A DNA stretch of 64,000 nucleotides from Lujinxingiaceae bacterium (GTDB taxonomy: Bacteria > Myxococcota_A > Bradymonadia > Bradymonadales > Bradymonadaceae), in NCBI GenBank assembly GCA_013697635.1, contig JACCWM010000074.1, positions 1 to 64,000 on the forward strand, in the 5' to 3' direction. Below are positions 7,054 through 28,293 of the stretch, in pieces. Position 1 is the stretch's first letter; every line of letters begins with the position of its first letter. The translations under genes were made by a program, and so were the position numbers. The notes beneath the pieces were generated by a model. The model made no database searches and was not told the DNA's origin. It was given only the letters and a program-made list of their open reading frames with translations.

Positions 7054-8889
7054 CTATTCGACGGTGACGCTCTTGGCGAGGTTGCGGGGCTGATCGATGT
7101 CGGTGCCCTTGAAATCGGCCGTGTAGTAGGCGATGAGCTGCACGGCAACCACCGAGATCAGGGGTTGGACGAATTCGGGCACGTCGGGGATGGTCACGAC
7201 GACGTCGGCGAATTCTTTGAGACGGGTGTCTCCCTCGGTGCCGATGGCAATGATGCGTCCGCCGCGCGCTTTGACCTCCTCAAGGTTACTCGCGGTCTTG
7301 TCGTAGACGCGGTTTTTGGGCACGAGCACGACGACCGGCAGGTTCTTGTCGATCAGCGCGATCGGGCCGTGCTTCATCTCGCCGGCGGCATACCCTTCGG
7401 CGTGTATGTAGCTGATTTCCTTGAGTTTAAGAGCACCTTCGAGCGCGATCGGGTACTGGTTTCCGCGGCCCAGGTAGAGAAAGGAGTGGGCGGCGGAGAA
7501 CTGCGCGGCGATCTGCTTGTAGGGCTCCATGTCCTTGAGCATGTCCTCCATCTGGGCGGGCACCTGGCGCAGGGCACGCACGAGCTCGCGGCCGGTCTTG
7601 AGATCGATCGTGCCTCGGCGCCGGCCAAAGTAGATCGCGAGCATGGAGACCACAGCAAGCTGGGTGGTGAAGGCTTTGGTGCTGGCAACGCCGATCTCGG
7701 GGCCGGCGTGGGTGTAGAGCACGCCGTCGGATTCGCGCGCGATCGTTGACTCGATCACGTTGCAGATACAGATCGCCTTGGCTCCAAGGGCCTTGGCCTC
7801 GCGCATCGCAGCGAGCGTATCGGCCGTCTCGCCGGACTGGCTGACGCCGATCACCAGGGTGCGCTCGTTGACGATCGGATCGCGGTAGCGAAACTCGCTT
7901 GCGAGCTCGACCTCGACCGGCACGCGCGCAGCCGTCTCGATGGCGTACTTGCCCACGAGCGCGGCGAAATAGCTCGTTCCGCAGGCGATGAAGACGATCT
8001 TCTCCATCGAGCGCACCCACTGCTCGTCGAGGCCGATCTCGGCCAGGTTGACGTCACCACGATCGACGCTGACGCGACCGCGCAGGGTGTCGGTGATGCG
8101 CGCCGGCTGCTCGTGGATCTCTTTGAGCATGAAGTGCTTGTAGCCCTGTTTTTCGGCCGAGATCGGATCCCAGCTGATCCGCTTGATGGCGCGCTCGACG
8201 GGCTTGCCGTGGGCATCGAAGACCCGGGTTTCGGCGCCGGTGAGGATCGCCGAATCGCCGTCCTCGAGGAACATGAAGTCGCGCGTGTGGCCAAGCACGG
8301 CGGGCACATCCGAGGCGGCAAAGGCGCAGCCCTGGGCGCGCGCGATGACCATCGGCGAGGCGTTTCGAGCGACGACGAGCTCGTCGGGGTTGCTGCTCTC
8401 CATGACGACGATCGCATACGAGCCCTCGATCTGGGCGATCGCTTCGCGCGTGGCCTCGTGCAAGGACTCGGCGCCGTTTTGAAGAGCGTCATCGATCAGA
8501 TGGGCGATCACCTCGGTGTCGGTCTCACTCAAGAATTCGCGGCCGTGAAGCGTCAGGCGCTCCTTGAGCTCGCTGTAATTCTCGATGATCCCGTTGTGGG
8601 CGAGCACGACGCGCCCGGCGCGGTGGGGATGCGCGTTTTGTTCGGTGGGCCGCCCGTGTGTGGCCCAGCGCGTGTGGCCCAGGCCGATGTGACCATCGAA
8701 GGGCGCCTCGGCAAAGGCCGCCTCCAGGCGGCTGAGTTTTCCCTGAGCGCGACAAATCTTGACCTCGCCGCCCTCGACCGCGATCGCCACGCCGGCTGAA
8801 TCGTAGCCGCGGTACTCCAGACGACGCAGGCCCGAGAGCAAGATGTCACTGCAGTTGGTGCTACCGACAAAACCGACTATTCCACACAT
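7054..8889 (-). CDS. glmS: Glutamine-fructose-6-phosphate aminotransferase (isomerizing)
   Basis: Converts fructose-6-phosphate and glutamine to glucosamine-6-phosphate, the first committed step to UDP-GlcNAc for peptidoglycan and LPS. 611 residues, the usual length. Seen: start MCGIVGFVGS, whose Cys2 becomes the N-terminal glutaminase nucleophile; a class II glutamine amidotransferase domain (1-220); and two SIS domains with CGTSYFA, SQSGETADTL and EISYIHAEGYAAGEMKHGP, ending NLAKSVTVE. The start at 8889 is forced because Cys must follow Met1, and GAGG lies just upstream; a longer in-frame extension to 8916 was rejected. The lipoprotein gene upstream ends 36 bp before it. Confidence 0.98.
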   Translation of the reverse strand: MCGIVGFVGSTNCSDILLSGLRRLEYRGYDSAGVAIAVEGGEVKICRAQGKLSRLEAAFAEAPFDGHIGLGHTRWATHGRPTEQNAHPHRAGRVVLAHNGIIENYSELKERLTLHGREFLSETDTEVIAHLIDDALQNGAESLHEATREAIAQIEGSYAIVVMESSNPDELVVARNASPMVIARAQGCAFAASDVPAVLGHTRDFMFLEDGDSAILTGAETRVFDAHGKPVERAIKRISWDPISAEKQGYKHFMLKEIHEQPARITDTLRGRVSVDRGDVNLAEIGLDEQWVRSMEKIVFIACGTSYFAALVGKYAIETAARVPVEVELASEFRYRDPIVNERTLVIGVSQSGETADTLAAMREAKALGAKAICICNVIESTIARESDGVLYTHAGPEIGVASTKAFTTQLAVVSMLAIYFGRRRGTIDLKTGRELVRALRQVPAQMEDMLKDMEPYKQIAAQFSAAHSFLYLGRGNQYPIALEGALKLKEISYIHAEGYAAGEMKHGPIALIDKNLPVVVLVPKNRVYDKTASNLEEVKARGGRIIAIGTEGDTRLKEFADVVVTIPDVPEFVQPLISVVAVQLIAYYTADFKGTDIDQPRNLAKSVTVE

Positions 8890-19261: not shown

Positions 19262-19840
19262 ATGAGCCAGACGGCGCATGATAATCAACCGCGATTCGAC
19301 GACGAGTCGGGGTTGATCGATCGGGCGGCCGGCGGGGACATGGCGGCCTTTCGCCTGCTCTATGATGGCTACGTGCACTATGTCAGCCATCATGTGGGCA
19401 GGCTCATGGGTCCGGGCTACGAGCTCGAAGATGTCGTCCAAGAGGTCTTCGTGCAGGTCTTTCGCTCGCTTGGCGAGTTTCGCCACGAGAGCAAGTTCTC
19501 GACCTGGCTCTACCGGCTCTCGCGCAATGTCGCGATCGATCACCTGCGAAAGCGCGCCAAGACCGTCGATCTCTCGTCGTGGCGCCCGCTCAAGGCCAAC
19601 GCCGGCGAGTGGAACAAGCTCGAGGCGCGCGAGCTGGTGCGCGCGCTGTATGCAGCCATGCAAAAATTCTCGGTAGAGAACCGCGAGGCCTTCGTGCTCT
19701 ACGAGATCGAGGGCATGACGCTGCGCGAGATCGAGGAGCTCACCGGTGAGTCGATCAACACGATCGCCGCGCGCGTGCGCCGAACCCGCGAACAACTGCG
19801 AGGCATCCTCGAAGCAACCCACAAAGGAGGAAGCCTGTGA
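19262..19840 (+). CDS. ECF sigma-70 family RNA polymerase sigma factor
   Basis: About 192 residues with sigma regions 2 and 4 only, as in extracytoplasmic-function sigma factors. Seen: region 2 DVVQEVFVQVFRSLGEFRHESKFSTWLYRLSRNVAIDHLRKR and region 4 FVLYEIEGMTLREIEELTGESINTIAARVRRTREQL in outline (helix-turn-helix near the end). The start is uncertain: the ATG at 19262 lacks a strong ribosome site and an in-frame ATG at 19166 would add 32 polar residues. It overlaps the next gene by 4 bp (GTGA), and that gene encodes its likely anti-sigma factor. Confidence 0.92.
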   Translation: MSQTAHDNQPRFDDESGLIDRAAGGDMAAFRLLYDGYVHYVSHHVGRLMGPGYELEDVVQEVFVQVFRSLGEFRHESKFSTWLYRLSRNVAIDHLRKRAKTVDLSSWRPLKANAGEWNKLEARELVRALYAAMQKFSVENREAFVLYEIEGMTLREIEELTGESINTIAARVRRTREQLRGILEATHKGGSL

Positions 19841-21165
19841 TCATCGACGCCATGGACTGCGACGAGGCGCGACGGCTGGCCTTCGAATACCGGCGCGGCG
19901 AGCTCGCCGAGGCCGACGCGGCCTCGGTGGCCGAGCATTTGCAGGGCTGCCAGGGCTGCCGCCACTACCACGAGCGCCTCGACTCCATGTTAGGAGCGAC
20001 GCGCTCGAGCGGCCCCATGGAGCCGGCGCCCTTTGATACCAACGCGCTCTTTGCCCGCATCACCACGCAATTGCAGCCGCAGGCCGACGAGCCGGCGCTC
20101 GTCGTCGAGGCCGCCCTCGACGACGACGACGATCTCTTCGAAGAAGAGCGCTCCTCGCGCTGGCTGTGGGCGGTGGCGGCGCTGGTCGCCGCCGTGGTGG
20201 CCCTGGTCACCGTGCCGCCCTTATTTGACGACACCAGCGCTCCCGCCCACAGCCAGGACGTGCTCGACCAGGCTCTGGTCCCGGTGATCAGCGCGCCCGT
20301 CGAGCCCGATCTGCTGGCCACGGTGGTGGCCAGGCCGCTCGAGAACCTGGCCGTCAAAGTCTTTGCCAGCGAGCTCGCAAACTGGAGCCTGACCGGCGAG
20401 CAGGACTACGAGCTCAGCGTGCAAAGCGGCACGGTGCTCGTGGAGTTTTTGCCGATCGAGGGCGCCACGCTGCGCGTGAAGTCGCCACGCTTCGAGGTGC
20501 AGGTGATCGGCACGGTCTTCTACGTCGTCGCCGAGGAGCAGGCCGCCGTGGGCGTGCTCACGGGCAAGGTCGAGGTGCAGCCCACCTCAGGAGCACCGGC
20601 TGTGGTCTCGACGGGACAGGAGATCTTGGCCGATCGCGAGGTGCGCCCGATGTCTGCGCTTCGCCTGGTCGAGGCCAGCCGCCACGTCGATCTGCTCGCC
20701 CACGAAAAAAACCTCGCTGCGCTCGCAGGCCCAAAAGACGAAGCCGACGGTGACGACGGTGACGACGGTGACGACAGCAGCGAGCAGGCCTCGGCCGCGC
20801 TCGCCCAACCCAACGATCGGCAAGCGGCGCAGCCTCAGTTTCGTGCCCACCCCTCGAGCACCGAGGAGCAGATTCGCCAGGCCGCCGACAAGGCGATGCG
20901 CGCGCGCAACTACGCCGAGGCCGCGCGCCACTATGAGCGCTTGCTCACGGTGTTGCCGGCGCACGACCCGGCGTCGGCCTCGGTGACCCTCGATCTGGCA
21001 AGGCTGTACCGCCAGCGCCTCGCGCGCCCGCAAAAGGCGATCGAGCATCTGCGCCGCTTTGTCGTGCGCTGGCCCGACGACGTGGCCACACCCTCGGCGC
21101 GCGAGGAGCTGTGCCGGTTGCTCGAGCGCGCGGCCCAGACCGATCCGCTCTGCCGCGAGCGCTGA
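19837..21165 (+). CDS. Anti-sigma factor with zf-HC2, FecR-like and TPR regions
   Basis: 442-residue membrane protein. Seen: an N-terminal zinc-binding anti-sigma motif (Cys8, then H34-x3-C38-x2-C41), an acidic stretch, one TM helix (about 108-130, LWAVAALVAAVVALVTVP), a FecR-like periplasmic domain (150-270, with TVLVEFLPIEGATLRVKSPRFEVQVIGTVFYV in outline), a disordered acidic linker with a DGDDGDDGDD run, and a C-terminal TPR-like helical region (345-440). The zf-HC2 part should hold the ECF sigma factor at the membrane; FecR and TPR parts may sense periplasmic signals. GTG start with a perfect AAAGGAGG upstream, coupled to the sigma gene. Confidence 0.87.
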   Translation: MIIDAMDCDEARRLAFEYRRGELAEADAASVAEHLQGCQGCRHYHERLDSMLGATRSSGPMEPAPFDTNALFARITTQLQPQADEPALVVEAALDDDDDLFEEERSSRWLWAVAALVAAVVALVTVPPLFDDTSAPAHSQDVLDQALVPVISAPVEPDLLATVVARPLENLAVKVFASELANWSLTGEQDYELSVQSGTVLVEFLPIEGATLRVKSPRFEVQVIGTVFYVVAEEQAAVGVLTGKVEVQPTSGAPAVVSTGQEILADREVRPMSALRLVEASRHVDLLAHEKNLAALAGPKDEADGDDGDDGDDSSEQASAALAQPNDRQAAQPQFRAHPSSTEEQIRQAADKAMRARNYAEAARHYERLLTVLPAHDPASASVTLDLARLYRQRLARPQKAIEHLRRFVVRWPDDVATPSAREELCRLLERAAQTDPLCRER

Positions 21166-21167
21166 CG

Positions 21168-22595
21168 ATGAAGAGGCGCCTCGCCATGGCCTTTGCGCTG
21201 GCCATGTCTTTGCCGACGTGCGTGCATGCCCAGATGCGCGAGAGCGAGACGCTGATCGTGCTCGATCTCTCCAACGCGTGTGCCGACGAGACCAGCGCCC
21301 TGCTGCTCACGAGCGAGGTGCGCGTTCGCCTGCCCGAGGCCGTCGTGATCCGCGAGAGCGCCGGCTTCGACGGCGCCGACTGGAGCGTTGCCTGGCGCAC
21401 CCTCGAGGAAGACGCGTGCGGCCTCGCGCTTCGCGGACCCGATGCAGGCGTTCAGCTTGCGCTGGCGGCAAACGCGCCACCCGAGCAGATCCGCCAGGCC
21501 GCAAGCCGCGTCGCCTGGCTGGTGAGCGTGCAGGCGTCTGGCGAGGCGGATGCTGACGCGCTCGACGATCCGCTGGCGCTCGACGCCTCGCTGCTCGGCA
21601 CGCCCCAGCCCCAAGCTGAGCCCGAGCCCCAAGCCGAGCCCGAGCCCGGTGCCGAAGATGAAATCGTGGCCGAGGCCATGGCCGAGCCTGACAGCGAGCT
21701 TGACAGCGAGCCGCAAGCTGAGCAGGCGCCGGCCTTTCGCGTCTCGCTCGTTCCCGGCATCAGCTTTCCCGCCTCAGCCGACAGCGAGCAGATCTCGACC
21801 TTCTCGCTCAACCTGCTCGGCGGGCGCTCCCTGGGCCTGAGCGGGGTGGAGTTCGGGCTGCTCTTCAATGCCGAGTCCGGCTTTGTCGAGGGGGTTCAGT
21901 TTGCCGTTGGCGCAAATCTGGTCTCGGGCGATGTCAGCGGCGCGCAGCTCTCCTTTGGCCTCAACCTGGCCCAGGCAAGCCTTAACGGCGTGCAGCTTGG
22001 CAGCGTGAACCTGGCCGGTGGCGTGGTGCGCGGCGCCCAGATCGGGTTTTTCAACGTCGGCAAAGACGTCGCCGGCCTGCAGATCGCGCTGATCAACGTT
22101 GCGCGCACGAGCGCCGTGCCAGTGGGGCTGGTCAATTTTTTGTACGGCGAGCCGGTCTATCTGACGACCTGGTTCACGCAGTCGGGGCTGCTGGTTGCGG
22201 GCATCCGCCACGGCGGCCGCTACCTGCGCTACATCTACGCCCTTGGCGCCTCACCTTTTGCCACCAACGCGCTCATGGCCGCCGGAGTCGGCGTGGGCGC
22301 GCACCTGCCGCTCGACCCGATCTATATTGATCTCGACGTGCTGGGCTTTCAACTGGCCGGCGTCGGTGAGAATTTTCTCGAGCAGGCCACGCTCAACCAG
22401 GTGCGCGTGACGATCGGCTGGCAGATCGCGCGCCACTTCGCCGTCTTTGGCGGTGTCGCGCTCAGCGCACTGGCGCCGCGCGGGCTCGCCGGCGCACAGG
22501 AGCTCGTGCCATCGTATGGCCAGCGCCTCTTCGAGAACGAGGCCGATCCCCAGATCTGGCTGTGGCCGGAGCTGCACCTCGGCCTGAGCTTTTGA
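21168..22595 (+). CDS. Exported protein with LA_2272-type surface repeats
   Basis: About 475 residues. Seen: a Sec signal peptide (MKRRLAMAFALAMSLPTCVHA), an N-terminal domain to about residue 125, a Pro/Glu/Ala-rich linker with repeated PQAEPEPQAEPEP (about 140-180), then glycine-rich repeats such as GVQFAVGANLVSGDVSG, GVQLGSVNLAGGVVRG and GLQIALINVARTSA, which match the pattern of LA_2272-family surface-repeat proteins thought to form outer-membrane or secreted beta structures. It starts 2 bp after the anti-sigma gene, so the three genes form one operon and this may be the envelope component monitored by, or acting with, the sigma system. Confidence 0.8.
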   Translation: MKRRLAMAFALAMSLPTCVHAQMRESETLIVLDLSNACADETSALLLTSEVRVRLPEAVVIRESAGFDGADWSVAWRTLEEDACGLALRGPDAGVQLALAANAPPEQIRQAASRVAWLVSVQASGEADADALDDPLALDASLLGTPQPQAEPEPQAEPEPGAEDEIVAEAMAEPDSELDSEPQAEQAPAFRVSLVPGISFPASADSEQISTFSLNLLGGRSLGLSGVEFGLLFNAESGFVEGVQFAVGANLVSGDVSGAQLSFGLNLAQASLNGVQLGSVNLAGGVVRGAQIGFFNVGKDVAGLQIALINVARTSAVPVGLVNFLYGEPVYLTTWFTQSGLLVAGIRHGGRYLRYIYALGASPFATNALMAAGVGVGAHLPLDPIYIDLDVLGFQLAGVGENFLEQATLNQVRVTIGWQIARHFAVFGGVALSALAPRGLAGAQELVPSYGQRLFENEADPQIWLWPELHLGLSF

Positions 22596-22696
22596 GCAGC
22601 CACGATCTCCTACTTTATTGGCAACAAGGCCAACTTCATGGTAGAGCAACCAATGCCATTGAGCTTGGGTTCTGGACACTAGCAGTAGGATGATCA

Positions 22697-24928
22697 GTGA
22701 GTGACGCCGTAGAAGTCGACGCGAAGAAAGAGAACGAGTGGTACAAGCAACGCGGCATCAAAGAGGCGCGCCTGATCAAGGCCTTCAAGGCCGTGCCCCG
22801 CGACGTGTTTACCGCAGCCACACCGGCCACTGAGGGCAGCGAGGCGAGCCAGTCGCAGTCACTGCCACCGGCCGAAGTCGTGGCCAAGTTGGTCTCGGCG
22901 CTCAAGCTCAAAGCCAACCACAAGGTGCTCGAGATCGGCACGGATTCGGGCTATATCGCCGCGATCTTGAGCCATCTGGCCGACCAAATCTACACGATCG
23001 AGCGCCGCCTGCCGGTAGCCAAGCTGGCCCAGGGCCGCCTCGCCGGCCTCGAGCGCGGCAATGTCGACGTGCTTCACGGCACGCGTCTGACCGAGTACGT
23101 GCTCAACGCGCCCTACGATGCGATCCTCTTGTCGGCGGTGGCGCCGCGCGTGCCCGAGAAGCTGCAAAAGCGTTTGAGCATCGGCGGGCGCCTCGTCGTA
23201 CCGATCGCCCAGACGGGCAAGAATCCCGAGATCATGTGCATCACGCGAACCGCCGAGGACAGTTTTAGCGAGGAGTCGCTGGGTCAGCTTCGCTTCACGG
23301 CGCTGCTTGGCCACATCCTCGTCGAGATGGGTGTCGCCGACAGCGAGGACATTGAGCTTGCCGCCATGGAGGCCGACGCCAACGGCAAGCGCCTGGGCCA
23401 GACTCTGGTCGATAGCGCACGCATCAAGGAGAGCGATCTGGTGCGCGCGCTGGCGATCCAGCGCGGCTTCAAGCTTGCCGAGGTAGGCGAGCTCGTCGAC
23501 ATGGCCGATCACGAGCTGGCCTTCTCGGTGCCGCGCGCCTTCTTGAAGCATCACCGCGTGCTGCCGATTCGCCTCGACGGCAAGAAGCTGATCGTGGCCA
23601 CCGTCGATCCGGACGCACCGGCGATCGAGCTTGCTCGCATCCTCGATGCCAGCGCCGTGGAGATCTACATCACCACAAACGCCGATTTTGAGCGTCTCTG
23701 GACCACGCTGCTCGAGGGCCGTCGCCCGCTGCAGCTCCATGAGGACAACCTCAAGGTGCGCGTCGAGAACAAATTCGAGGCGATGCTGCGCGCCGCGGTG
23801 CGTGTGCAAGCGCGCGCCATCCATCTGGAGACGACCTCGGCCAGAACCGGCGTTCGCTTTCGCCTCGAGCGCGAGCTTCGCGAGGTCTCGGAGGTCAGCT
23901 TCGACGGCACCGAGATGGCCTTTTTGCTCGAGTATCTCAAGATCAACGCGCGCCTCGACGTCGAAGAGCAGCGCGTGCCCCAGCGCGGACGCTTCTCCTG
24001 GGCACGCGATACGACGACCTTTCACATCGGACTGCAGACCCTGCCTTCGATTCTGGGCGACCAGATCGTGCTCAACATCTTGGCCAGTGGCGACGAGCCA
24101 GCCACGCTCAAGAGCCTGGGCTTTGCCGACGATCTGGTCGACGAGATGCGCGTGATCTTGCAGCTTGGCACGGGCCTGGTGCTGATTGTCGGTCCGGCCC
24201 AGGTCGGCAAGTCGACCACGTTGTATGCCATGCTCCACGAGATCGCCCAGGATCGCACCAAGAAGGTCGCCCTGATCGAGGACGACGTGCTCTACCCGAT
24301 CCCCGGCGTGCATCAGGCGCTGGTCCAGCCCGATCGTGGCTTTGGTTTTTCCGAGGCGCTGCGCGAGTTTGCGCGCTGCGATGTCGACGTGATCGCCATC
24401 TCGCAGATCTCCGACGCCAAGACGGCGATGCAAGCGATCGAGGCCGCTCACAAGGGCCTGCTCGTGATCGCCACGCTGCAGGGCAAGTCGGCCGTGCAAG
24501 TGCTCGCCGGGCTTCGCGATCTGGGCGTGCCGGCCGACGTGCTCGCTGGCGCCCTGACTGCCGTCTTGACTCAGCGTCTTGCGCCACGCATCTGCGAAGT
24601 ATGCCGCACGCCGGCCAAGCCCGATCCGAAGTTCATCGACAAGATCTTCCCGCGCGGCGAGCCGGTGGGCTTCAAGGCTTATGTTGGCAAGGGCTGCGCC
24701 CATTGCAACAAGCGCGGCACCCATGGGCGCGCCGCGATCGTCGAGTGGTTGCCCGTCTCCGACGCGATGCGTCATGCGATCGCCACCAACCGCTCCGCCG
24801 AGGAGCTTCGCCTCAGCGCGCTCGACTCCGGCGTGACGACGCTCGCTCAGTGGGCGGTTCGCATGACGCGCGAGGGCATCATCCCGGTCGACGAGCTCGA
24901 CGCCTATTTGCCGGTCAAACATCAATGA
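22697..24928 (+). CDS. PCMT-like methyltransferase fused to a GspE/PilB-type ATPase with altered catalytic motifs
   Basis: 743-residue fusion. Residues 1-210 match protein-L-isoaspartate O-methyltransferase: RGIKEARLIKAFKAVPRDVF, SQSLPPAEVVAKLV, VLEIGTDSGYIAAIL (SAM loop) and APYDAILLSAVAPRVPEKL. Residues 225-340 match the GspE/MshE N-terminal domain (GKRLGQTLVDSARIKESDLVRAL, RAFLKHHRVLPI). Residues 345-743 match type II secretion/type IV pilus ATPases: Walker A GPAQVGKSTTLY (about 499), IEDDV, and a CxxC...CxxC zinc motif (CEVC, CAHC). The Walker B region reads DVDVIAISQISD, with Gln where GEIRD has catalytic Glu, and the His box reads ATLQGKS instead of STLHTND. GTG start with AGGA upstream. 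No pilus genes lie nearby. Confidence 0.85.
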   Translation: MSDAVEVDAKKENEWYKQRGIKEARLIKAFKAVPRDVFTAATPATEGSEASQSQSLPPAEVVAKLVSALKLKANHKVLEIGTDSGYIAAILSHLADQIYTIERRLPVAKLAQGRLAGLERGNVDVLHGTRLTEYVLNAPYDAILLSAVAPRVPEKLQKRLSIGGRLVVPIAQTGKNPEIMCITRTAEDSFSEESLGQLRFTALLGHILVEMGVADSEDIELAAMEADANGKRLGQTLVDSARIKESDLVRALAIQRGFKLAEVGELVDMADHELAFSVPRAFLKHHRVLPIRLDGKKLIVATVDPDAPAIELARILDASAVEIYITTNADFERLWTTLLEGRRPLQLHEDNLKVRVENKFEAMLRAAVRVQARAIHLETTSARTGVRFRLERELREVSEVSFDGTEMAFLLEYLKINARLDVEEQRVPQRGRFSWARDTTTFHIGLQTLPSILGDQIVLNILASGDEPATLKSLGFADDLVDEMRVILQLGTGLVLIVGPAQVGKSTTLYAMLHEIAQDRTKKVALIEDDVLYPIPGVHQALVQPDRGFGFSEALREFARCDVDVIAISQISDAKTAMQAIEAAHKGLLVIATLQGKSAVQVLAGLRDLGVPADVLAGALTAVLTQRLAPRICEVCRTPAKPDPKFIDKIFPRGEPVGFKAYVGKGCAHCNKRGTHGRAAIVEWLPVSDAMRHAIATNRSAEELRLSALDSGVTTLAQWAVRMTREGIIPVDELDAYLPVKHQ

Positions 24929-24948
24929 CTTTTGTCGGGGTTTTTCCC

Positions 24949-25506
24949 ATGCACCGTCTCATCGCCATCGTTTTGCTCGCCGCCCTGCTTGCGCCCTCGC
25001 TGGCATTTGCCCAGACCCAGACGCCGCGAAAGAAGAAGAAGCGCCCCGACGTCCAGCTCGAGAGCAAGACGTCGCGCGTGCACATCCCCGGCGCGCGCTG
25101 GGACTACGGCTGGCTGGAAAACTCCCACGCGATCGGTCTGGGCTACATCTACGCCATCGAGCGCGAGTACACCTGGTGGGAGCTCGCGCTCTTGCTGCGC
25201 GCGGGCGTTGGCGCCGACGTCAAGCTGGTCACGGTAGGCTTTGGCGGCATCGACGGCTTCTTGAGCTACGCCACCAGCCGCGCCACCGCGATCGGCGACA
25301 TCGGCGGCGCCACGCTCGAGCTTGGCCTGGGTGCCGGCGGCGACTCCAACGGCATCTTTCCGGCCGCACAGGCGGGCATCTATTACTCCGCGAGCAACTA
25401 CGACATCGGCTACTCCTACCAGACACCCATTGGCACCGCCCGCGCGCCCTGGCTGAGCCAGCACCAGATCAGCGCTCGCTTCCACCTGCCGATTGGGCGC
25501 CACTGA
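24949..25506 (+). CDS. Small exported protein of unknown function
   Basis: 185 residues with a clear Sec signal peptide (MHRLIAIVLLAALLAPSLAFAQ), a basic stretch (PRKKKKRPDVQLES), then glycine- and aromatic-rich alternating segments (AIGLGYIYAIEREYTWWELALLLRAG, AGIYYSASNYDIGYSYQTP) ending in ISARFHLPIGRH, which suggests a small outer-membrane beta-barrel. An in-frame ATG at 24925 overlaps the fusion gene stop (ATGA) and is an alternative start; 24949 gives a cleaner signal peptide and has GGGG upstream. Its coupling to the PCMT-GspE fusion suggests a shared role, but the family was not recognised. Confidence 0.7.
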   Translation: MHRLIAIVLLAALLAPSLAFAQTQTPRKKKKRPDVQLESKTSRVHIPGARWDYGWLENSHAIGLGYIYAIEREYTWWELALLLRAGVGADVKLVTVGFGGIDGFLSYATSRATAIGDIGGATLELGLGAGGDSNGIFPAAQAGIYYSASNYDIGYSYQTPIGTARAPWLSQHQISARFHLPIGRH

Positions 25507-25525
25507 GCGCATTGGTTGCGCGCGG

Positions 25526-26788
25526 CTACGGCCGCGACCAAAAGCCCACGAACATCAAGCCATTGGGAAAATCGAGCGACGCGATCTTGGCGAGCGCGCC
25601 CGTGGCCTGATTGCGCTCAAAGCTCACCAAATCGCTGGTATTGCGGTTGGCGAGCAACAAGAAATTGCCGCCCGCGTCGATCGCAAAGCTTCGTGCATGC
25701 TCGCCGTGGCCACTGACCTGGCCGAGCTTGTGAAGGCCTGCGCCCTGCACCTCAAAGATCACGATGTGATTCAAAGGCTCGCGGTGCACCGCGTAGACGT
25801 GGCGTCCGTCTGGTGAGACGTGAATATCGGAGCTCCTGCTGAACTCGCTCACACCCTGCGGAAGTGCGCTCACTGTCTCGAGCGCGCTCAAGACGCCCGT
25901 GTCCTCGTTGACCGAAAAGATCGTCACCGTGCTGGCAAGCTCATTGATCACATAAGCGTAGGGCGCGCTCGGATGGAAGTCCATATGACGAGGGCCCGAG
26001 CCGGCCGGCACAGCCTCGGCGCCAAGATCGGTCAGCGTGCCGCCATCGGCATCAAAGGCTAGCATACGAATGTGATTGCTCCCCAAACACGGGATATAGA
26101 CGAAGCGATTGGAGGGGTGCACGCGCACCTGGTGGGCATTGCGACAAAAGCTCGCGTCGTTGGAGCCCCCGAGATCGAGGATGGAGTTGCCCGGCAGGCC
26201 GTCGTCGTCGAGCGGCAACATCGACAGTGAGTGGCCGCCATAGCTTGCGCTAAACACGTAGCGCCCACTTTGATCGACCTCCACGTGGGTGCCGCCGTCT
26301 TTGGCGCTCGCTGCCGCCAGATAGGCGAGCTTGTTTTCCTCATAGCTGTAGGCGCGCACGGTGGACTGGCTGGCTGCGTACAAAATCGCGCGCGTGGGGT
26401 GAAACGCCACAAAACTCAGCTGCGTGGCCGAGGTGTCGGTATCGCGCAGGCTGAGCGCTCCGGTCTGCGCATCGAAGGCGTAGGCGCTCAGCGTGCCGTT
26501 GCCTTGTCCGACGATCACGTCCTGCACCACAGGCTCGACGCTGGTATCGGGCGGCACGTCCTCGCCATGGCCGAGGTCCGCCAACGCGTCGGGGATGTTT
26601 GAGGCCACATCCGTGGTGTCCGATGAGGGCGCGTCGGCCGTGCTCGCGTCAAGCACGCTCGTATCGGCATCGGCGCCCGAATCGGTGGTGCCAGGGCCCG
26701 TATCTGCGCGGTCTGGCACGTCCGAACCACAGGCAATGCCGAGCACGCTGACCAATACGATGAGGGTGCTTCTGGCTGTCTTGAACAT
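25526..26788 (-). CDS. Lactonase-family beta-propeller lipoprotein
   Basis: 420 residues. Seen: a lipoprotein signal peptide (lipobox GIAC, Cys20), an acidic Asp/Ser/Thr linker (21-85), and a seven-bladed propeller-type domain with blade motifs VAFHPTRAILYAAS, VEVDQSGRYVFSASYGG, VRVHPSNRFVYIPCLG, MDFHPSAPYAYVINE and IHVSPDGRHVYAVHRE. This matches the 6-phosphogluconolactonase-like (YbhE) lactonase family, here secreted and membrane anchored, so a cytoplasmic pentose-phosphate role is unlikely. AGGGG lies upstream of the ATG at 26788. Convergent with the small exported protein gene, divergent from the next gene. Confidence 0.85.
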   Translation of the reverse strand: MFKTARSTLIVLVSVLGIACGSDVPDRADTGPGTTDSGADADTSVLDASTADAPSSDTTDVASNIPDALADLGHGEDVPPDTSVEPVVQDVIVGQGNGTLSAYAFDAQTGALSLRDTDTSATQLSFVAFHPTRAILYAASQSTVRAYSYEENKLAYLAAASAKDGGTHVEVDQSGRYVFSASYGGHSLSMLPLDDDGLPGNSILDLGGSNDASFCRNAHQVRVHPSNRFVYIPCLGSNHIRMLAFDADGGTLTDLGAEAVPAGSGPRHMDFHPSAPYAYVINELASTVTIFSVNEDTGVLSALETVSALPQGVSEFSRSSDIHVSPDGRHVYAVHREPLNHIVIFEVQGAGLHKLGQVSGHGEHARSFAIDAGGNFLLLANRNTSDLVSFERNQATGALAKIASLDFPNGLMFVGFWSRP

Positions 26789-26940
26789 GGCAATACCCCT
26801 GATTTAGCTCGAACCATCTGTAACGAATCGACTCGAGGCTATCCAACCACTTTCTTGATGCGATGGCCAATCACTCGCGCTAAGCTCGCAGCGTTTATCC
26901 TACTTAACTGATTCACGCTATCCCATCGGAGTGGTGCACC

Positions 26941-28293
26941 ATGCCTGCAAATCGTCGTTGGTCCTACGCAGCGCTCGCGCTCGCCGCGCTCGTCTTGTTC
27001 AGCCCTTCACTGCTCGCCAGCACCCACTCCCAGGACGTTTTGATTCCCGTGCAAGGCCTCTTGGCCGGCGCCGACGGTGTGGCCGTCGAGGGACCGGTGG
27101 CGATGCACTTCTCGCTCTTTGACGCCGACGATGCCACGGAGTCGGTCTGGTCCGAGAGCCAGCAGGTGGTGGTCGAAGCCGGCTTGTTCACGCTCCATCT
27201 GGGCGCGCTCGAGCCGCTCGCGGCCGCGCTCTTTCACCACAACGGCCAGCTCTACCTCGAGCTCAGGGTTGGCGAGGACGACGCCATGGAGCGCTGGCCG
27301 CTTGGCGTGACGCCCTTTGCAGCCCACGCGCACTTTGCCGGCAACGCGGCACGCCTCGAAGGACGCAGCAGCGCCGAGCTGCGCGCCGATGCAACAGCCT
27401 ATGACAACAGCGGCTCGGGGCTCACCGCCACAACGCTTCCCTCGGCGCTCGACGAGATCCTGGCGCGCCTCGCGGCCCTCGAACAACAAAGCGCTCAGGC
27501 GCTGGCCAGCGTCGAGAGCCGCATCGAAGCATTGGAGAGCGAAAACGCCGCGCTCGTCGGCCAACTCGAAGCGCTCGAGCTCGCCCTCGCCACCAGCATG
27601 GAGGCTACCCAGGAGATGATCGACGCCCAGGCAGCCAGCATTGGCGCGCTCGAGGAGCTCACCGCTCCGATGACCCGAGAGACCATCGACGAGCAAGACT
27701 CGATCGCCTTTACTAACGTCAACGTGCATGTGCGAAGCGGCAGCGCCACGACCCATGGCACGATCAACGGCCGCGGCAACCTGATCGTCGGTTACAACGC
27801 GCTTCGCCCGGAGTCCGATATCATCGAAGAGCCGGCCAACATTCGAACGGGCTCGCACAACCTGATCGTCGGCGATCATCACAACTATGCGAGCTATGGC
27901 GGCTTCGTCACCGGCAGTGAGAACGCCATCATGGCCGCATTCTCGTCGGTCAATGGCGGCCACAGAAACACCGCCTCTGGCCCGTTTTCCTCGGTCAGCG
28001 GCGGCGCCACCAACACGGCCGCAGCCAGCTACTCCTCGGTCAGCGGCGGCAGCGCCAACACCGCCAGCGGCAACTACTCCTCGATCAGCGGCGGCAGCGG
28101 CAACACCGCCTCGGGCTCCGCTGCCGCGGTCGCTGGCGGCCAGGGCGGCCTCGCCACGGGCAACTCCAGCGCCGTCAGCGGAGGCTATCAGAACCGGGCC
28201 ACCGGCGCCGCCTCGGCCGTCAGCGGCGGCTCCACACGCACAGCCTCAGGCGCCTTCTCGTGGAGCGGCGGCGAATACACCAGCGCGATGTGA
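26941..28293 (+). CDS. Exported protein with coiled coil and YadA-head-like repeats
   Basis: 450 residues. Seen: a signal peptide (LALAALVLFSPSLLAS), an N-terminal beta domain (about 30-140, ending VTPFAAHAHFAGNAARLEG), a coiled coil (155-225, ALEQQSAQALASVESRIEAL region), and a C-terminal array of Ser/Gly repeats: FSSVSGGATNTAA, YSSVSGGSANTASG, YSSISGGSGNTASG, AAAVAGGQGGLATG. These match left-handed beta-roll head repeats of trimeric adhesins such as YadA, but no C-terminal membrane anchor domain follows, so it is probably secreted or surface-bound by other means. The repeats are nearly identical at DNA level. Confidence 0.8.
   Translation: MPANRRWSYAALALAALVLFSPSLLASTHSQDVLIPVQGLLAGADGVAVEGPVAMHFSLFDADDATESVWSESQQVVVEAGLFTLHLGALEPLAAALFHHNGQLYLELRVGEDDAMERWPLGVTPFAAHAHFAGNAARLEGRSSAELRADATAYDNSGSGLTATTLPSALDEILARLAALEQQSAQALASVESRIEALESENAALVGQLEALELALATSMEATQEMIDAQAASIGALEELTAPMTRETIDEQDSIAFTNVNVHVRSGSATTHGTINGRGNLIVGYNALRPESDIIEEPANIRTGSHNLIVGDHHNYASYGGFVTGSENAIMAAFSSVNGGHRNTASGPFSSVSGGATNTAAASYSSVSGGSANTASGNYSSISGGSGNTASGSAAAVAGGQGGLATGNSSAVSGGYQNRATGAASAVSGGSTRTASGAFSWSGGEYTSAM

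Follow-up and report, generated by a model that had tools for sequence, protein, structure and literature searches.

The window analysed here, a 64,000-nucleotide stretch of DNA, contains a gene whose product joins a PCMT domain, an MshEN domain and a T2SSE (PilB/GspE-like) ATPase domain with substituted catalytic residues, raising the question of whether such a protein is real and what an ATPase of this kind could do for its host. The gene is a single uninterrupted ORF, as the first-pass annotation had read it, with the Shine-Dalgarno-like sequence AGGA 6 nt 5′ of its GTG start, and the Pfam searches suggested there returned PCMT, MshEN and T2SSE, all clearly above their cut-offs (Table 1). 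With Foldseek, the C-terminal half resembles PilF, PilB and GspE, the best match being PilF (5oiu, E-value 6e-38, 34% identity). The protein scores below the curated equivalog cut-offs for PilB/GspE (TIGR02538, 287.8 against 675.65; TIGR02533, 272.1 against 630.25). An AlphaFold model of the single chain, based on an alignment of ten relatives, has a mean pLDDT of 76 and a pTM of 0.41, so that the individual domains can be read from it but not their arrangement. An Rfam scan of positions 21000-27000 of the window identified no RNA element at thresholds.

Table 1. Features of the fusion gene and its downstream neighbour, with positions in the window.
Feature	Position	Strand	Basis
B-type PCMT-MshEN-T2SSE fusion gene, 743 aa	22697..24928	+	Single ORF, GTG start, orthologues
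PCMT domain (PIMT-like, Rossmann methyltransferase), aa 14-203	22736..23305	+	PF01135, E-value 2.3e-28, match aa 17-203
Position of PIMT substrate loop, Q-S-L-P (aa 54-57) for Q-T-I-S	22856..22867	+	Alignment to PIMT structures
SAM motif I, LEIGTDSGY (aa 78-86), Asp83 in place of the middle Gly	22928..22954	+	Alignment to PIMT structures
MshEN_N 24+5+24 register, aa 203-255	23303..23461	+	NF053729, 37.9 bits against cut-off of 38
MshEN Pfam domain, aa 269-338	23501..23710	+	PF05157, E-value 1.8e-10
T2SSE (PilB/GspE-like) domain, aa 356-734	23762..24898	+	PF00437, E-value 5.7e-68; Foldseek 5oiu PilF
Walker A, GPAQVGKSTT, formally intact in window, lost in most orthologues	24191..24220	+	Motif alignment
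Walker B, DVDVIAISQ, catalytic Glu replaced by Gln570	24380..24406	+	Motif alignment
His box, TLQGKS for TLHSND	24473..24490	+	Motif alignment
Tetracysteine zinc site, C633, C636, C667, C670	24593..24706	+	Unchanged across the A, B and PilB/GspE sequences aligned
193-aa predicted exported protein, signal-peptide-like N-terminus, not a conserved neighbour	24925..25506	+	Start overlaps fusion stop (ATGA)

Of the 21 species in the host's family (Bradymonadales), 14 have the fusion, Lujinxingia vulgaris among them, and a search of the family's 21 genomes gave 37-56% identity over almost the full length for the 13 species other than the host. All three Pfam domains are found in each of the ten members of the relatives' alignment (A3). 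As the same domains occur in the same order and in one frame across these species and also in other Myxococcota families, the fusion is not an assembly artefact; a frameshift or assembly join at about position 23350 was considered and rejected, the same junction being present in other species. Standard PCMT and PilB/GspE genes do exist separately in relatives, which the first-pass annotation had thought would count against the fusion, but the fusion is present beside them. Among 379 Myxococcota genomes, the PCMT-MshEN part was detected at an E-value of 1e-35 or below in 14 genomes of the family and in three others (G071, G173, G214), while in a fourth genome outside the family (G227) the copy is truncated by a contig end. 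Named carriers include L. vulgaris (L088), soda-lake MAGs labelled Myxococcales, a Sandaracinus MAG (L096) and a MAG labelled Planctomycetota (L095). This last possesses an A-type fusion (see below) grouping with the Myxococcota copies; either a mistaken label or gene transfer may explain this.

The fusions form two paralogous clades, termed here A and B, with the window gene being of the B type. The A set comprises proteins of G013, G014, G015 and G020, a copy on another contig of the host's own genome (C105), PCMT-less copies of G009 and G001, and those from outside the family. The B set has 13 members, namely a core of 11 (window, G010-G012, G014-G020) and the early-branching copies of G009 and G001. 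All 12 A proteins keep every ATPase motif (GPTGSGKST, VEDPIEY, VGEIRD and TLHSND or TLHCND), the sole change being V for I in the Asp box, whereas the 11 core B proteins have lost Walker A, the Walker B Glu, the Asp box and the His box in various combinations. Core B P-loops read GPRHEQKS, GPRHMGKK, GPRHAAKK and similar, the closest to an intact one being GPRHVGKT of G015. In the early-branching B proteins the P-loop is kept (with Lys replaced by Arg in G001), the Walker B Glu is D and the His-box His is gone. Scores against the T2SSE Pfam model follow the same division, at 167-255 bits in B and 357-387 in A. Retained throughout both sets are the zinc cysteines, R387, R389 and the P-loop residues G499 and P500.

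For the window protein itself, the earlier motif reading (Walker A and four zinc cysteines intact, Gln570 for the Walker B Glu, TLQGKS as His box) agrees with the motif alignment. The Walker B Glu and the His box needed for ATP hydrolysis are thus absent from this protein, and Walker A is absent from most of its orthologues. The accompanying proposal of ATP binding without turnover does not extend to B as a whole, since only the window copy and the early-branching members of B have an intact Walker A and most orthologues have no P-loop (as in GPRHEQKS and GPRHAAKK); the window copy, with its formal Walker A, may bind ATP.

Phylogenetic trees support the division. In the T2SSE tree, a branch of 1.2 (100/100) splits A and B together from the generic PilB/GspE proteins found in these genomes, and all 13 B proteins fall in one clade (98/88), the stem of the 11 core B proteins measuring 1.47 against 0.15-0.31 for the A tips. 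The tree of the PCMT domain again has B as a single clade (90/99), and consequently a long-branch artefact uniting the two B subgroups is unlikely. The fused PCMTs lie to one side of the stand-alone PCMTs in this tree, an arrangement (72/95) which is not firm.

The MshEN domain of the window protein was compared with the published c-di-GMP-binding motif (PMC5013675), RLGxx(LVI)(LVI)xxG(LVI)(LVI)xxxxLxxxLxxQ. Residues 203-255 follow its 24+5+24 register exactly, and the match to the MshE-type c-di-GMP model NF053729 covers residues 204-255. Against that printed motif, motif II keeps R232, L233, G234, L248, L252 and Q255, the sole departure being A for G, and motif I has L in place of Arg and A in place of Gln. 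With only half of the predicted site preserved, c-di-GMP binding by this domain is possible but not confidently predicted.

We favor, at a probability of roughly one half, a reading in which B is a conserved pseudo-ATPase, whose PCMT-MshEN half would be the working part and whose dead ATPase would be a scaffold, acting on a pilus or secretion ATPase (A, or PilB or GspE). B would have arisen by duplication of an active PCMT-MshEN-T2SSE protein. Its T2SSE half, keeping the predicted PilB/GspE fold, the zinc site and several structural residues, would no longer need ATP hydrolysis and in most species probably not even ATP binding, and could serve for oligomerisation or as a docking ring. The N-terminal half, its residues for isoaspartyl methylation lost, is probably a ligand- or protein-binding sensor. 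B would most likely associate with the ATPase of a type IV filament or type II secretion system (its sister A if present, otherwise PilB or GspE) and modulate it. Alternatively, it may signal in the manner of nucleotide-free PilB in Myxococcus xanthus; EPS regulation persists in the Walker A mutant K327A of that protein, and signalling has been ascribed to its nucleotide-free form (PMC5544727). A role as regulator or scaffold for a predicted non-hydrolysing ATPase had been put forward in the first-pass annotation, and on sequence evidence the conserved fusion with its lost hydrolysis motifs supports it. The active paralogue A, the borderline c-di-GMP-type motif and the reciprocal degeneration had escaped that annotation.

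The two paralogues are constrained in opposite halves. Between the genomes G014, G015 and G020, which possess both copies, B identities are 66-74% for PCMT, 72-80% for MshEN and 54-64% for T2SSE, while those of A are 37-45%, 46-65% and 76-79% respectively, with 87-91% in the ATPase core; as A and B are compared between the same genomes, species divergence is controlled. Across the six genomes with both copies, the B proteins are the more similar in MshEN and the A proteins the more similar in T2SSE in 15 of 15 pairs, which are not independent of one another. The A proteins of G009 and G001 have no PCMT domain, and PCMT scores in A range from 0 to 78 bits where B is present (63-78 in G014, G015 and G020) against 77-156 where it is absent. 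In the host's own genome, the A paralogue (L079 7452-9784, on G000:C105) has a frameshift near 7805-7830 which parts PCMT from MshEN-ATPase; no slippery run is visible there, and it may be a real mutation or an assembly error. A 388-aa PilT-like T2SSE gene (L079 6028-7194, minus strand) divergently adjoins this A-type gene. We take the reciprocal constraint as a division of labour after duplication, one that would represent only two or three independent events and with B also occurring without A.

Such a pattern could also arise if A and B were complementary subunits of a mixed hexamer, B providing the sensor half and A the motor half of what was one ancestral PCMT-MshEN-ATPase. The reciprocal conservation in every genome with both copies, the missing, weak or frameshifted PCMT of A beside B and its higher scores where B is absent are in keeping with this, and heterohexamers have been proposed for this ATPase superfamily (PMC6711533). 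However, seven genomes of the family have B but no A (G010-G012 and G016-G019, the latter less complete), and as three of the seven are 96-99% complete, A is not the only possible partner of B. The reverse, A but no B, is seen in G013 and in three genomes from outside the family. The two genes are never adjacent, and the PCMT losses in A amount to two or three independent events only, G009 and G001 possibly never having had the domain. We hold a mixed hexamer to be unlikely. Similarly doubtful is a further picture in which a duplicated type IV filament ATPase has split into a motor (A) that gives up the sensor half and a catalytically dead sensor (B) that gives up the motor half, whose PCMT fold would act as a non-catalytic sensor of SAM/SAH or of protein damage and, together with MshEN, gate a mixed ring.

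The PCMT domain of B bears on whether a methyltransferase could still be active on the ATPase scaffold, for isoaspartate repair or on a new substrate, the scaffold being that of a pilus or secretion ATPase. The TxS loop and the GxGxG residues of PIMT bind substrate and SAM. Aligned to solved PIMTs (4l7v, 3lbf, 1jg1), the METHYLTRANSFERASE domain of the window protein has QSLP for QTIS and GTDSG for GTGSG. None of the fusions has the TxS loop. At the middle Gly of the SAM motif each of the 11 core B proteins has D, E or S, and the A proteins which possess the domain retain this Gly. Ten stand-alone PCMTs all have TISQP or TLSQP and GxGSG; these were found by a pattern requiring T/S/V-x-S and GxGxG and are thus illustrative, a bias from which the alignment to PIMT structures is free. 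In favor of activity, B conserves the domain well (66-74%) and retains the acidic post-I residue E102, motif II D141 is D in 10 of the 11 core B proteins, and the window domain matches PIMT structures at an E-value of 1e-23. Furthermore, the host's own genome (G000) has no stand-alone PCMT at an E-value of 1e-10, with most relatives having one or two. On the other hand, most relatives with B also have normal PIMT genes (206-241 bits), and the window domain lies below the PIMT equivalog cut-offs (TIGR00080, 108.8 against 159.05; PRK00312, 131.9 against 188). The losses in the substrate loop and SAM motif argue against isoaspartyl methylation and weaken the case for SAM binding in B. An active enzyme is improbable, and neither the earlier idea of isoaspartate sensing nor isoaspartate repair or methylation is supported; the strong conservation of the domain would rather point to binding without catalysis.

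Still less probable is a slow or nucleotide-switched ATPase in B that draws its catalytic residues in trans from adjacent subunits of the ring. In keeping with such a mechanism, the 11 core B proteins share the P-loop residues Lys505 and Thr508 without exception, every B protein apart from that of the window (Q) has E or D as its Walker B acid, and 10 of the 11 core proteins retain the His-box His. But the P-loop Gly and the Mg-binding Ser/Thr are gone in most B species, and motif losses that differ between species argue against a conserved catalytic mechanism.

That B is a decaying duplicate on its way to becoming a pseudogene, as might be suggested by its lost motifs and the long stem it has in the ATPase tree, is contradicted by its dN/dS, by a mean MshEN identity of 72% and by full-length frames free of inner stops in 13 species (one, G011, cut by a contig end), and can be set aside as highly improbable. 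The dN/dS of B, estimated among three closely related Lujinxingia-type genomes, is 0.05-0.07 for the ATPase domain, at most 0.02 for MshEN and 0.12-0.15 for PCMT (0.12-0.16 overall), with a value of about 0.10 for the neighbouring cysS as comparison gene. The B proteins of Lujinxingia type (L067, L069, L070) also have a fast-evolving, low-complexity SEVSEVSE tail N-terminal to PCMT (dN/dS 0.27-0.44).

In nine genomes cysS lies directly upstream of B. In place of cysS, the window fusion has as neighbours an ECF sigma factor (19262-19840), a zinc-finger/FecR/TPR protein (19837-21165), a 475-aa protein (21168-22595) and the 193-aa exported protein, the first three being a likely operon (19262-22595). 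The 475-aa protein has an export-signal-like N-terminus. Of these upstream genes, considered as candidate partners of the fusion, only the 475-aa type (G014, G020) and FecR (G020) recur beside B, and homologs of the former are also present in genomes without B. The gene of the 193-aa protein is indeed translationally adjacent to the fusion, as first annotated, sharing the ATGA overlap and having a signal-peptide-like N-terminus. As a functional partner it finds no support, for its homologs in seven other B-bearing genomes are all unlinked to B, and an operon partnership of the fusion with this gene was rejected. Homologs of the 193-aa protein occur as near-tandem pairs, approximately 2.6-3.7 kb apart, in G010:C3 and G011:C91. 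Further downstream in the window (26941-28293) is a 450-aa exported-looking protein with a coiled coil and repeated SGGxxNTASG units (beta-roll-like; PF21300 below cut-off). No pilus or secretion genes are linked to B and no platform gene lies near either A or B; most genomes have about eight platform-protein (T2SSF) matches with or without A or B, so that both paralogues lack an inner-membrane platform of their own.

The loss of motifs in B together with its preserved PCMT and MshEN domains suggests a motor turned regulator beside a working sister copy, A. Because some of these genomes also have an active paralogue and the two are reciprocally conserved, it becomes testable whether the motor role of a pilus-type ATPase can be separated from its sensor role, and partly so in a cultured genus, since Lujinxingia, a member of the Bradymonadales, carries B. 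Pseudo-enzymes are well studied among kinases; to our knowledge, naturally evolved and conserved pseudo-ATPases of the PilB/GspE family have not been described, and none were found in the literature. In agreement with the first-pass annotation, which knew of no described system with this layout, a literature search found no paper describing a PCMT-MshEN-T2SSE protein, and the text of PMC5013675 does not name PCMT as a partner domain of MshEN.

Like the PilB, PilF, GspE and MshE ATPases (PF00437), the B fusion has the N2D-CTD fold, an MshEN domain ahead of the ATPase and a tetracysteine zinc site. It differs from these in the PCMT domain at its front, its lost catalytic motifs, the lack of a dedicated platform protein and its place in a separate clan of the ATPase tree. 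With PIMT (PF01135) it shares, by sequence, the Rossmann methyltransferase family, motif II and the post-I acidic residue; unlike PIMT, the window fusion has no TxS loop, has Asp for a Gly of the SAM motif, has an ATPase attached and lies below the NCBIfam PIMT cut-offs. The MshEN c-di-GMP receptor (NF053729) has the same exact register and the motif II residues R, L, G, L, L and Q, but motif I of the window protein lacks R and Q and the score falls just short of the cut-off. A further parallel is the signalling by PilB of M. xanthus, where an ATPase-dead protein signals without pilus building (PMC5544727). There, however, it is an artificial mutant of a working motor, while B, known from its sequence, would be a dedicated, evolved pseudo-ATPase. 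The parts and the fold are already known, and it is the fusion and the evolved pseudo-ATPase that would be new.
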